Source of the DNA: Nocardioides sp.
GTDB lineage: Bacteria; Actinomycetota; Actinomycetes; Propionibacteriales; Nocardioidaceae
Assembly: GCF_030019515.1 (NCBI RefSeq)
Contig: NZ_JASEEQ010000006.1
Span: 62,001-126,000 of the forward strand
DNA: 64,000 bases
Direction of reading: 5' to 3'
Part shown: positions 2,381 through 37,491 of the stretch, piece by piece
Numbering within the stretch: position 1 is the first letter of the stretch
How the letters are laid out: every line of letters begins with the position of its first letter
The notes under the pieces: model-generated
What the model was told of the DNA's origin: nothing
Seen by the model: only the letters and a program-made list of their open reading frames with translations
The model's database searches: none
Translations under genes and position numbers: made by a program

Positions 2381-3202
2381 ATGCGCGGTCGAACCCATGC
2401 GCGGCCCCCGGAGTCGCCCGGTCCGGGCTGGCTTCGGGCCCGCCTGGGACGGCCGCCTGCCGACCGCAGGCGCAGCCTGTGGCGGGCCGGCACCCCCGTG
2501 GTCGTGCTGCTGTGCGGCGCCCTGTTCGTGGTGAGCGCCGCCAACAGCGGCGGCACCGACCTGCGCCCCGGCCGCTACACCGACCTCGCGTCGCTGGTGA
2601 AGGACGAGGCGGACCAGTACGCCGAGCTCCAGCAGCGGCGCACCGAGCTCAACGACCAGGTCGCGTCGCTGTCGGCTGCGGTGAGCGATCGCGACGTGAA
2701 CCGCTACCAGCGCCGGGTGGCGGAGCTGAAGGACCCGACCGGCCTGGTGCCGCGCTCGGGCGCCGGCATCTCGATCACCCTGTCCGACGCACCCGAGGAC
2801 GTCATCAACTCCACGACCGGCGACATCAACGAGCTGCTCGTGCACCAGCAGGACATCCAGGCCGTCGTCAACGCCCTGTGGAAGGGCGGCGCGACCGCGG
2901 TCACCATCGCCGGGCAGCGGATCGTCTCCACCACCGGCATCAAGTGCGAGGGCAACGCGGTCCAGCTCCAGGGCGTGCCCTACCCCCAGCCCTACGTCAT
3001 CCAGGCGGTCGGCGACCAGGGCGCGCTGCTGACCGCGATCGAGGGCGACACCTACGTCGGGGCCTACCGCGAGGACGCGGCCGACCCCGACATCTCCGTC
3101 GGGTGGGGCCTCGAGCTCGAGGACCGGCTCACCGCGCCGGCGTACGACGGCCTGCTCGACCTCAACTACGCCGAGCCGCTGGTCCCCGTCTCCGGGAGCT
3201 GA
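2381..3202 (+). CDS. DUF881 family membrane-anchored protein
   Basis: A 273-aa protein with a basic N-terminus, one membrane helix at about 37-54 and a probable coiled coil at about 60-115, followed by a DUF881 domain of unknown function that should lie outside the membrane. It corresponds in position to Rv0012 of the M. tuberculosis dnaA-pknB region, where it also sits next to crgA. It diverges from crgA across a 50-bp promoter region and ends 41 bp inside the 3' end of convergent pknB. Its stop codon lies in a 15-bp tandem duplication (3188-3217). DUF881 assignment is confident; the biochemical role is not known. Confidence 0.85.
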   Translation: MRGRTHARPPESPGPGWLRARLGRPPADRRRSLWRAGTPVVVLLCGALFVVSAANSGGTDLRPGRYTDLASLVKDEADQYAELQQRRTELNDQVASLSAAVSDRDVNRYQRRVAELKDPTGLVPRSGAGISITLSDAPEDVINSTTGDINELLVHQQDIQAVVNALWKGGATAVTIAGQRIVSTTGIKCEGNAVQLQGVPYPQPYVIQAVGDQGALLTAIEGDTYVGAYREDAADPDISVGWGLELEDRLTAPAYDGLLDLNYAEPLVPVSGS

Positions 3203-34007: not shown

Positions 34008-34925
34008 ATGTCCCCGTCGGTCCCGTACCACCTCGAGCTGACCGAGGAGCCCGCCGCGTTCCTCGCCGCGGCGGGGTCCCACCTGGCCGCCGACCCCGTG
34101 CTGACCACGGTGATCGCGACGGTGACCGAGCGGATCGCCGCCGCGGACGAGCGCGGGGTCGCGCGGGGCCAGCACCCCTGCTGGTGGGCGGTCGTCCGCG
34201 ACGAGGCGGGTGCGGTGGTCGGCGTGGCGATGCGGACCGCGCCGTTCGAGCCGTATCCGCTCTACGTGCTGCCGATGCCCGACGAGGCGGCAGTGACGCT
34301 GGCCCGGCTCGTGCACGAGCGCGGCGAGCCGCTGCACGGCGTGAACGGCGCGCTGCCGGCGGCCCGCCGGGTCGCGGAGGAGGCCGCCCGGCTGGCCGGC
34401 GGCGAGGTGCGCGTGCACGAGCACCTGCGGCTCTTCGAGCTCGGCGAGCTCGCGGTGCCGCCGAGCCCGCCCGGTCGGCTGCGGCTCGCGACCGCGAACG
34501 ACCTCGACCGGGCGCTCGCGTGGTTCCGGGCGTTCGGGCTCGCCGCCGCCGAGCAGGCCGGCCGCGACGAGCCCCATGCCATGCCGGACCTCACGGCGGA
34601 CGACATGCTGCTGCGTCTCGAGCAGGAGGTGGTCTGGCTCTGGGAGGACGAGCGCGGCGAGCCGGTGCACCTGACGGCTGCGAACCCGCCGGCGAACGGC
34701 GTGACCCGGATCGGCCCGGTCTACACGCCGGTGCGGCACCGGGGCCGGGGCTTCGCCAGCGCCGCGGTCGCCGACGTCTCCCGGCAGTACGTCGAGAGGG
34801 GCGTGCGCTGCTGCCTGTTCACCGACCAGGCGAACCCGACGTCGAACCGGATCTATCAGGCGCTCGGCTACGAGGCGGTCGTCGACATGGCCAACCTGGT
34901 CCTCACCACACCAGGACCGGCTTGA
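34008..34925 (+). CDS. GNAT family N-acetyltransferase, two-domain
   Basis: A 305-aa protein: a degenerate N-terminal half and a C-terminal GNAT domain with [28 protein letters not shown], the acetyl-CoA pyrophosphate loop (RGRGFA), and [14 protein letters not shown]. The substrate is unknown. It diverges from valS and its end overlaps the convergent alcohol dehydrogenase gene by 23 bp. Confidence 0.87.
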
Positions 34926-36006
34926 CCACCCTCCCGGCGAGCACGTCGGCGATCGCGCTGTTGATCTCGCCGAAGGGGTAGGTCGTGACCAGGTCGTCGA
35001 GCGGCAGCCTGCCCTCGGCGTTCATCCGCAGCATCCTCGGGACCATCTCCTGCGGGTCGGAGTCGCCCTCGACCGAGCCTCGCACGACCTTGCCGTTCTG
35101 GAGCAGGTCGATCGCGTCGACCGGGAACTCCGGGCGGCTCATGTCCAGGCCGAGGACGACCAGCGTGCCCTGCACCCCCAATGACTGGGCGGCCTCCTTG
35201 AGGACGGAGGGCACCGCGGTCGTCTCGATGCCGTACGTCGCGCCGCCACCGGTCAGCTCCTTGACCCGCTCCACCACGGTCGTCTCGCCCAGGCCGGCCG
35301 GGTCGACGCCGATCGCGCCGAGTCGCTCGGCCGCCTCGAGCCGGCGGGCCTGGAGGTCCACGGCCACGACGGTCCCCACCCCGCTGGCGCGTGCGGCGGC
35401 GACGGCGGCCAGCCCGACCGCGCCCACGCCGTACACCGCCACGGAGTCGCCCGGCCCAGGCTGCGCGACGTTGAGCACGGCTCCGGAGCCGGCCATGAAG
35501 CCGCAGCCGTACGGCGCGATCCGGGTCAGGTCGAGCGAGGGGTCGACCACGACGACGCTGCTGGCGAGCGCGACGGCGTGCCGGGCGAAGGACGACTGCC
35601 CGAAGAAGTGGCCGTAGACGGGCCCGCCCTCCCGGGAGTACGACGTCGAGCCGTCCGTGCGGAAGCCCATGTAGTTGAGCATCAGCGTCTGCTCGCAGTA
35701 GCCCGCCTGCCCGGCCTGGCACTTCGCGCAGCCGCGGCACGAGGCGAGGCTGAGCACCACGTGGTCGCCGACCGCGATGCCGGTCACGTCGGCGCCGACC
35801 TCCTCGACGACGCCGGCACCCTCGTGGCCGAAGACCCTCGGGAACATCTCCGCGGGCAGGGTGTCGCGCAGCGAGAGGTCGGTGTGGCACAGGCCGGTCG
35901 CGACGATGCGCACCAGCACCTCGTCGGCGCGCGGGCCGTCGACCTCCACCGCCTCGAGCACGAACTCCGCTCCGGGACCGTTGACGACCGCGACCGTGGT
36001 TCTCAT
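34903..36006 (-). CDS. zinc-dependent alcohol dehydrogenase (MDR family)
   Basis: A 367-aa medium-chain dehydrogenase. Catalytic zinc ligands in GLCHTDLS and GHEGAGVVEEVG; structural zinc cysteines in CRGCAKCQAGQAGYC; NAD-binding GVGAVGLAAVAAA. It oxidises a primary or aryl alcohol with NAD(P), class III/benzyl-alcohol-dehydrogenase-like. ATG at 36006 is 7 nt after TAGGTT, and CTGACA lies 17 bp further upstream, a full promoter. A KstR-type motif overlaps that -10, suggesting the gene belongs to a sterol or fatty-acid regulon. Divergent from folC. Confidence 0.9.
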   Translation of the reverse strand: MRTTVAVVNGPGAEFVLEAVEVDGPRADEVLVRIVATGLCHTDLSLRDTLPAEMFPRVFGHEGAGVVEEVGADVTGIAVGDHVVLSLASCRGCAKCQAGQAGYCEQTLMLNYMGFRTDGSTSYSREGGPVYGHFFGQSSFARHAVALASSVVVVDPSLDLTRIAPYGCGFMAGSGAVLNVAQPGPGDSVAVYGVGAVGLAAVAAARASGVGTVVAVDLQARRLEAAERLGAIGVDPAGLGETTVVERVKELTGGGATYGIETTAVPSVLKEAAQSLGVQGTLVVLGLDMSRPEFPVDAIDLLQNGKVVRGSVEGDSDPQEMVPRMLRMNAEGRLPLDDLVTTYPFGEINSAIADVLAGRVVKPVLVW

Positions 36007-36017
36007 GAGGAGCAACC

Positions 36018-36031
36018 TAGAACCTGTTCCA
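36018..36031. promoter_or_regulatory. KstR-type operator at the alcohol dehydrogenase promoter
   Basis: TAGAACCTGTTCCA fits the published KstR consensus TnnAACnnGTTnnA at every fixed position. It overlaps the minus-strand -10 (36014-36019) by two bases and fills most of its 17-bp spacer. KstR is the TetR-family repressor of sterol catabolism in mycobacteria and rhodococci, so repression of this gene in the absence of ligand is the inference. Confidence 0.6.
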
Positions 36032-36072
36032 CTTTCTGTCAGCGGCTCGCCGCTCCCTAGACTCGACGCACC

Positions 36073-37491
36073 ATGAGCGACACCCCTGGCAACACCCCCG
36101 GCAACACCCCCGACGCGCCCCGGCTCGCCGCGACCTTCGAGGAGGTCGAGGACGCCCTGCTGTCCCGCTGGCCGGAGACGAGGCTGGAGCCCTCCCTCGA
36201 CCGGATCCGCGCGTTCACCGAGGTGCTCGGCGACCCGCAGTCCGGGTACCCGGTCATCCACCTGACCGGCACCAACGGCAAGACCTCGACCTCGCGGATG
36301 ATCGACACGCTGCTGCGCGCGCTGGACCTGCGCACCGGCCGGTTCACCAGCCCGCACGTGGAGCGGATGACCGAGCGGATCTCGGTGGACGGCGAGCCGC
36401 TGAGCGACGAGGCGTTCGTGCGCGCGTTCAACGACGTGGCGCCGTACACCCACCTCGTCGACACGAGCGAGGACCACCCGCTGTCGTTCTTCGAGACCGT
36501 GGTCGGGATGGCGTACGCCGCGTTCGCGGACGCGCCCGTCGACGTCGCCGTGGTCGAGGTGGGGATGGGTGGCTCGTGGGACGCGACCAACGTCGCGGAC
36601 GCCACCGTGGCGGTGGTGCTCCCGGTGGCGGTGGACCACGCGGCGTACCTCGGCGGGACGCCGGCCCAGATCGCCGTCGAGAAGGCCGGCATCATCAAGC
36701 CGGGCTCCGTCGCGGTGCTCGCCCAGCAGACGCCGGAGGTCACCCGGGTGCTCCTCGACCGGGCCGCCGAGGTCGGCGCCGGCGTGGTCCGGGAGGGCCT
36801 GGAGTTCGGCGTCATCTCGCAGGTGCCCGCCGTCGGCGGCCAGGTGCTCGCCCTCCAGGGCCTGCGCGCCCGGTACGACGACGTGTTCCTCCCGCTGCAC
36901 GGCGCCCACCAGGCGCAGAACGCCGTGGTCGCCCTCGCCGCGGTCGAGGCGTTCCTGGGTGCCGACGAGCACGGCCAGCCCCTCGACGAGGACCTCGTTC
37001 GCGCCGCGTTCGCGGAGGCGACCTCGCCCGGCCGGCTGGAGATCGTCCGGCGCAGCCCGACGATCGTGCTCGACGCGGCGCACAACCCCCACGGCGCCGA
37101 GGCGATCGCCGCCGCCATCGAGGACTCGTTCACGTTCTCCCCGCTCATCGGCGTGGTCGGGGTGATGGGGGACAAGGACCACGAGGGACTGCTGGCCGCG
37201 CTCGAGCCGGTCCTCGCTCACGTCGTGTGCACCCAGAACTCCACCGCGCGAGCGCTGCCGGCCGAGCGGCTCGCGGCGGTCGCCCGCGAGGTCTTCGGGC
37301 CCGACCGGGTGTCGGTCGCGCCCACCGTGGCGGTCGCCCTCGAGGAGGCGGCGACGCTGGCCGAGGCCGGCGAGACCTTCGGCGCCCCCCTCGGCTCCGG
37401 CGCCGTCCTGGTCACCGGGTCCGTGGTGACCGTCGGCGAGGCCCGCTCCCTCCTGGTCCGTCCCGAACGGAACCGAGGAGCGGCCCGGTGA
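36073..37491 (+). CDS. folC: bifunctional folylpolyglutamate/dihydrofolate synthase
   Basis: A 472-aa Mur-ligase-fold enzyme adding glutamate to dihydropteroate and folates. P-loop GTNGKTST (about 69-76), FTSPHVERMTERISVDG, VEVGMGGSWDATN and DAAHNPHG are all visible. The first 12 residues include a TPGNTPGN repeat. A TAGACT hexamer ends 9 nt before the ATG. Its stop overlaps the next start (GTGA). valS-folC linkage, here loosened by two inserted genes, is common in actinobacteria. Confidence 0.95.
   Translation: MSDTPGNTPGNTPDAPRLAATFEEVEDALLSRWPETRLEPSLDRIRAFTEVLGDPQSGYPVIHLTGTNGKTSTSRMIDTLLRALDLRTGRFTSPHVERMTERISVDGEPLSDEAFVRAFNDVAPYTHLVDTSEDHPLSFFETVVGMAYAAFADAPVDVAVVEVGMGGSWDATNVADATVAVVLPVAVDHAAYLGGTPAQIAVEKAGIIKPGSVAVLAQQTPEVTRVLLDRAAEVGAGVVREGLEFGVISQVPAVGGQVLALQGLRARYDDVFLPLHGAHQAQNAVVALAAVEAFLGADEHGQPLDEDLVRAAFAEATSPGRLEIVRRSPTIVLDAAHNPHGAEAIAAAIEDSFTFSPLIGVVGVMGDKDHEGLLAALEPVLAHVVCTQNSTARALPAERLAAVAREVFGPDRVSVAPTVAVALEEAATLAEAGETFGAPLGSGAVLVTGSVVTVGEARSLLVRPERNRGAAR

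Follow-up and report, generated by a model that had tools for sequence, protein, structure and literature searches.

A zinc-dependent alcohol dehydrogenase (ADH) is encoded beside housekeeping genes in the window, the whole 64-kb stretch of Nocardioides DNA that was analysed, and the locus raises the question of which regulator controls this enzyme and in which pathway it acts. The sequence-only reading had placed a KstR-type operator at its promoter and had predicted that the otherwise anonymous enzyme belongs to a regulon for sterol or related lipid degradation. The features concerned are the following.

34903 to 36006, minus strand: zinc-dependent, probably NAD-dependent medium-chain alcohol dehydrogenase of 367 amino acids (P0001), from domains, structures and conserved residues
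36014 to 36019, minus strand: -10-like hexamer TAGGTT, from the sequence and from conserved flanks in orthologue promoters
36018 to 36031, no strand: predicted KstR operator, the 14-bp palindrome TAGAACCTGTTCCA (TGGAACAGGTTCTA on the ADH strand), from its unique match and its conservation
36037 to 36042, minus strand: -35-like hexamer CTGACA of the ADH promoter, from the sequence; absent from the consensus scan
36073 to 37491, plus strand: folC (folylpolyglutamate synthase, labelled by eye), an ORF; divergent neighbour, considered not to be under the operator's control

The 3' end of the ADH gene overlaps that of a convergent ORF (34008-34925, plus strand; acetyltransferase-like by eye) by 23 bases, at 34903-34925.

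The sequence TAGAACCTGTTCCA at 36018-36031 matched TnnAACnnGTTnnA exactly and lies in the 66-bp gap separating the divergent ATG codons of the ADH (36006, minus strand) and folC (36073, plus strand). It was the sole TNNAACNNGTTNNA match in the 64 kb. Shuffled versions of the window gave a mean of 0.05 matches (100 shuffles), with at least one match in 5 of the 100. The stricter pattern TRGAACNNGTTCYA, with one mismatch tolerated, again returned 36018-36031 alone in the window (0.04 expected). The consensus match first claimed for this promoter was therefore confirmed as exact and as unique in 64 kb against an expectation of 0.05. A search of the window with a KstR2 pattern found no site. Taken with the comparative data below, the palindrome is very probably a KstR operator on the ADH promoter.

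The mycobacterial KstR operator, TAGAAC(N2)GTTCTA or TnnAACnnGTTnnA, is the same 14-bp palindrome and likewise overlaps a -10 element, which there belongs to the kstR promoter; 29-bp probes containing it are bound by KstR (PMC1995591). The authors of that study state that they did not formally demonstrate binding to the motif as distinct from its flanks (PMC1995591). The Mycobacterium smegmatis site TCTGGAACAGGTTCTAGTTT (MSMEG_3562) and the ADH strand of the window have the 14-mer TGGAACAGGTTCTA in common (PMC1995591). The mycobacterial operator differs in that it belongs to another genus and another target gene, and the site in the window is a predicted one. One predicted mycobacterial site, GAGAACGTGTTCCA of Rv0223c, was not bound in vitro (PMC1995591), and it can be likened to orthologue sites described below, seven of which start with G and four with A or C.

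Read along the ADH strand, CTGACA (36042-36037) is followed by 17 bases, TAGGTT (36019-36014), seven bases and ATG (36006-36004), and the final TA of the operator forms the first two bases of the predicted -10. This is the CTGACA-17-TAGGTT arrangement overlapping the operator that had been read from the sequence. Both hexamers are weak, with TAGGTT holding three of the six consensus bases, and a consensus promoter scan of 35900-36150 reported no promoter. The promoter is called because of its conservation across orthologues and not from the consensus scan. In an alignment of 26 orthologue promoters with the site directly before the ADH, the G after the operator's TA was retained in 25 promoters, and the two T of the -10 hexamer in 22 and 21. 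Between -25 and -5, all but one of the 21 positions have an information content below 0.4 bit in the same promoters. The core AAC..GTTCTA of this alignment was set by the search pattern, so its conservation proves nothing by itself and the flanks alone are informative. A TGACA- or GACA-like stretch was seen by eye near the -35 place in many, not all, of the 26. From the geometry of promoter and ATG the ADH transcript is probably leaderless.

A homologue of kstR and further sites were looked for in the genome, as the sequence-only reading had proposed, and both were present. The protein P0002 on contig C11 is KstR (E 6.5e-59 to the solved KstR 5cw8, with a near-identical helix-turn-helix region), and P0003 is KstR2 (E 2.5e-65). 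The 4.60-Mb genome contained 35 14-mers of the TnnAACnnGTTnnA type compared with nine for a reversed-pattern control, and 15 strict TRGAACNNGTTCYA sites compared with none in the control. The 35 comprise 27 in the regions studied, one in the window and seven (TTCAAC, TCGAAC or TACAAC forms) that were left aside. Some lie on steroid genes, namely those for ChsH2, 3-ketosteroid dehydrogenase, CYP125 and thiolase. Nine of the 35 fall at 267-365 kb of contig C11. This stretch encodes CYP125 (E 1.5e-153 to the solved structure), an extradiol dioxygenase (E 6.8e-110 to 2zi8, a chain which we take to be HsaC), a 3-ketosteroid dehydrogenase, ChsH2, a thiolase and acyl-CoA dehydrogenases; mce4 and further hsa genes were labelled there by eye. 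The CYP125, HsaC, KstD and KshA labels were compared with solved structures and all held. The sequence TGGAACGTGTTCCT, one base off the consensus, lies upstream of this genome's own kstR (L048:9249-9262), and kstR is probably autoregulated through it. A strict site was also present at L059:5077 (C29:289576); the called start 119 bases beyond it belongs to a 2-oxoacid:ferredoxin-oxidoreductase-like gene, an unexpected central-metabolism candidate for the KstR regulon.

Twenty-five of the 27 sites were tabulated as having a same-strand called start between 400 bases before and 300 bases after the site; the others are in L052 and L061. Gene calls came from a simple script and their starts are approximate, and alignment-based starts were given for L022, where the ADH frame had been mis-called. 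As a raw count, 7 of the 25 have a called start codon exactly 24 bases past their first base. This set includes ChsH2 and a 3-ketosteroid dehydrogenase, and the corresponding distance for the ADH site in the window is 25. With a spacing like that of other sites in the genome, the ADH promoter resembles in layout the promoters of some core steroid genes. This suggests a recurrent architecture common to the ADH and core steroid genes, in which the operator is fused to the -10 and the start codon follows some 24 bases past the first operator base.

The site was conserved with the ADH. Among 98 Nocardioides genomes, an even draw from the larger genus, an ADH orthologue (58-100% identity) was found in 39, and 38 of these have the site in front of the ADH or of its operon (26 exact matches, 11 altered in the first base and one placed before the operon). 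The pattern search found it within 700 bp upstream in 33 of the 39, as 26 exact TnnAACnnGTTnnA sites and seven starting with G in place of T; in G020, G035, G042 and G063 the site differs in the first base alone (C or A). Equally scoring places numbered 17 in 261,755 positions of site-rich DNA from the window's own genome, or about 0.05 per 700 bp. The GTTCTA end was present in all 37 sites within 700 bp, the full GTTCTA not being demanded by the search pattern, and it is in this half that the -10 begins. In genome G027 the site TGCAACATGTTCTA is located 93 bases before the called chsE4 start (L119), in the gap that separates chsE4 from the divergent kshA, and could act on both genes. In 11 genomes a DUF4334/GXWXG gene stands between the site and the ADH, immediately before the latter. 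The sole exception of the 39 was G009, with no site within 700 bp upstream of the ADH. Seventeen of 18 close loci, partly from the same genomes, also had the site; the exception was Nocardioides szechwanensis, apparently the same contig as G009. Three orthologues from beyond the 98 genomes (G237, G247 and G293) had it as well. No site was seen at five loci outside the genus (L128-L132), nor within 6.5 kb around a 47%-identical ADH paralogue in the window's own genome (L123).

The distribution of the ADH followed that of sterol catabolism. KstR was present in 65 of the 98 genomes (E <=1e-20). At least five strict sites were found in 56, a close CYP125 relative (E <1e-118) in 56 and HsaC (E <1e-150) in 56. 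These three sets are the identical 56 genomes, all of them within the 65 with KstR. The 33 KstR-negative genomes held two strict sites in total, with none having more than one. The ADH occurred in 39 of the 56 genomes with KstR, CYP125 and HsaC compared with none of the 42 others (Fisher p 3e-14, a value that ignores common descent). The 17 steroid-degrader genomes that lack it show that the enzyme is accessory. In a class-level search of 296 genomes, 50 had an ADH match at E <=1e-75, and identities of at least 58% were restricted to Nocardioides. With KstR present, the ADH in 39 of 56 against 0 of 42 genomes and the site at 38 of 39 orthologues, the assignment of this ADH to the sterol regulon is supported.

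Two observations concern KstR itself. Nine genomes (G021, G026, G028, G044, G049, G060, G061, G087 and G093) have a KstR homologue (E <=1e-20), zero or one strict site and no CYP125 or HsaC at the thresholds used; their KstR would be orphaned or repurposed. The kstR match of G036 (G036:C1:2159677-2160285) contains one TAG, possibly marking a pseudogene or a sequencing error, and the genome still has nine strict sites.

The enzyme itself, P0001, has ADH_N and ADH_zinc_N domains. Its closest solved relatives, both aligning near full length, are a zinc-binding-domain alcohol dehydrogenase (5tnx, E 9.1e-91) and a benzyl alcohol dehydrogenase (1f8f, E 3.4e-84), for neither of which a steroid or KstR link was seen. 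Residues C40, H61 and C168 and C90, C93, C96 and C104, presumably the catalytic and structural zinc ligands, were conserved in all 30 orthologues checked, of the 39. The same was true of an Asp (30 of 30 checked, of the 39) at the NAD-preference position, a residue that we take to mark, as it usually does, a preference for NAD. Membership of two curated families was rejected on score: NDMA-dependent alcohol dehydrogenase (TIGR03989; 243 bits against a cut-off of 440) and S-(hydroxymethyl)mycothiol dehydrogenase (TIGR03451; 204.1 bits against 512.9). No curated family named a substrate for P0001. The available part of a paper on mycofactocin held nothing bearing on this ADH (PMC6529628).

In G027 the ADH comes after two acyl-CoA dehydrogenase genes and overlaps the end of the second; their products match both chains of 4x28 (E 8.9e-156 and 5.9e-74) and are presumably ChsE4-ChsE5. 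This group stands next to kshA (E 4.8e-154) and a gene read by eye as kshB. In L076 the ADH is followed by another acyl-CoA dehydrogenase gene from this family (E 2.4e-52 to 6wy8), and the start of a similar gene was seen by eye after the ADH in L072 and L079. The ADH had been described as far from any visible catabolic cluster. That is true of the window's own genome, where the steroid genes found are on contig C11, and does not hold for G027, where the ADH stands behind chsE4-chsE5 in a steroid cluster. A second partner is the GXWXG/DUF4334 protein (P0004; L039, complement of 2607-3077), encoded in 14 of the 98 genomes and directly upstream of the ADH in 12. In G052 (L121) a DUF4334 gene immediately precedes a 48%-identical ADH, and the 5.5 kb read there contain no KstR site; in G010 (L122) the gene lies elsewhere. 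This pattern suggests that the pairing of DUF4334 and ADH is older.

Three other explanations of the palindrome were weighed. A TetR-family regulator other than KstR that recognises a similar sequence could bind it. KstR-like places abound (a first look gave 27 to 117 candidates in the 65 genomes with KstR) and the nine genomes above combine a KstR homologue with zero or one strict site, so that motif and homologue are not perfectly tied. However, every one of the 56 motif-rich genomes has KstR, CYP125 and HsaC, no KstR-negative genome exceeds one strict site, the motif also lies on the ChsH2, 3-ketosteroid dehydrogenase and CYP125 genes here, and KstR has been found to bind probes with this palindrome (PMC1995591). 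A different regulator is accordingly improbable. A still smaller probability attaches to the operator controlling folC in place of, or besides, the ADH. The site does lie between both start codons, and many published KstR sites are found between divergent genes (PMC1995591). Against this, the conserved overlap with the -10 faces the ADH, and the site stays with the ADH where folC is not its neighbour (a glycerate-kinase-like locus, the DUF4334-ADH pairs and the chsE4-chsE5 arrangement). Moreover, folC was located in 15 of the 17 ADH-less steroid degraders (G016 and G076 gave no match) and none of the 15 had the site within 1000 bp upstream. The site-free folC regions, together with the site-free paralogue, assign the operator to the ADH, and folC was rejected as its target. 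A chance match is the least credible of the three. The reversed control does yield nine such 14-mers in the genome, but 0.05 were expected in the window and the site recurs at 38 of 39 orthologues, and chance was rejected on both counts.

As an operator of the ADH, the palindrome leaves the substrate of the enzyme to be considered. ChsE4-5 are assigned to the side chain's first step once the C26 acid has been joined to CoA (PMC7807495, Table 3), and the company of chsE4-chsE5 led to the proposal that the ADH is a side-chain alcohol or aldehyde dehydrogenase. There is about an even chance that it uses NAD to oxidise a side-chain alcohol or aldehyde of a sterol, or catalyses the opposite reduction (for example C26-ol/C26-al or C22-al/C22-ol). 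More tentative is the narrower proposal that the KstR-controlled ADH and its DUF4334 partner (12 of 39 genomes) would form an NAD-dependent side-chain step in Nocardioides, acting on a C26 or C22 alcohol or aldehyde next to the ChsE4-ChsE5 reaction. CYP125 is listed for all steps from sterone to C26 acid (PMC7807495, Table 3), and a C26 alcohol dehydrogenase is therefore not strictly needed. In Sterolibacterium extracts NAD-dependent oxidation of a C26 alcohol was hardly detectable, although a dehydrogenase did reduce the aldehyde (PMC7411048). A KstR-regulated ADH could also act on a small by-product alcohol or aldehyde (propanal, a side-chain fragment) or on another lipid, and not on a steroid. 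The nearest solved structures, with their lack of a visible steroid link, and the G052 pair of DUF4334 and 48%-identical ADH without a KstR site fit this reading. The position of the ADH with the side-chain-step acyl-CoA dehydrogenases ChsE4-ChsE5 in G027 and beside the related one in L076 speaks against it. A non-steroid substrate is thus a real possibility, if not a probable one.

Under the preferred reading, a dimer of KstR, the TetR-family repressor of sterol catabolism, would bind 36018-36031. Bound there, it would cover the spacer together with the first part of the -10 and would exclude RNA polymerase. A sterol side-chain intermediate of the 3-oxocholest-4-en-26-oic-acid type, the type of metabolite published as the KstR-releasing ligand, would then free the promoter. 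From the operator and its place we infer that the ADH would be induced in this way and made along with the products of steroid genes located in other parts of the genome.

Related regulons have been described. Nocardioides simplex VKM Ac-2033D, of the same genus name, has KstR and KstR2 regulons, with 71 operons carrying predicted KstR sites (PMC7807495, PMC7593942), of which only 27 rose on phytosterol (PMC7807495), a caution, like the unbound Rv0223c site, for assignments made from predicted sites. Table 3 of that report lists chsE4-5, cyp125, chsH2 and kstD, and it differs from the present case in listing no zinc ADH of this kind (PMC7807495). In Mycobacterium sp. VKM Ac-1817D phytosterol induces alcohol and aldehyde dehydrogenases whose genes have putative KstR sites (PMC6593523). 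One of its alcohol dehydrogenases, G155_00805, is in the predicted KstR regulon and a role in side-chain cleavage was considered possible; it resembles the ADH of the window by description (PMC6593523).

As far as sequence can show, the ADH is a further, new member of the known KstR regulon. An anonymous ADH beside housekeeping genes thereby becomes a testable enzyme of sterol catabolism, and comparative genomics around a single operator is seen to be able to identify a lone regulon member in Nocardioides. The links to chsE4-chsE5 and DUF4334 point to concrete candidate substrates. Side-chain alcohols and aldehydes matter in making steroid drug precursors from sterols.
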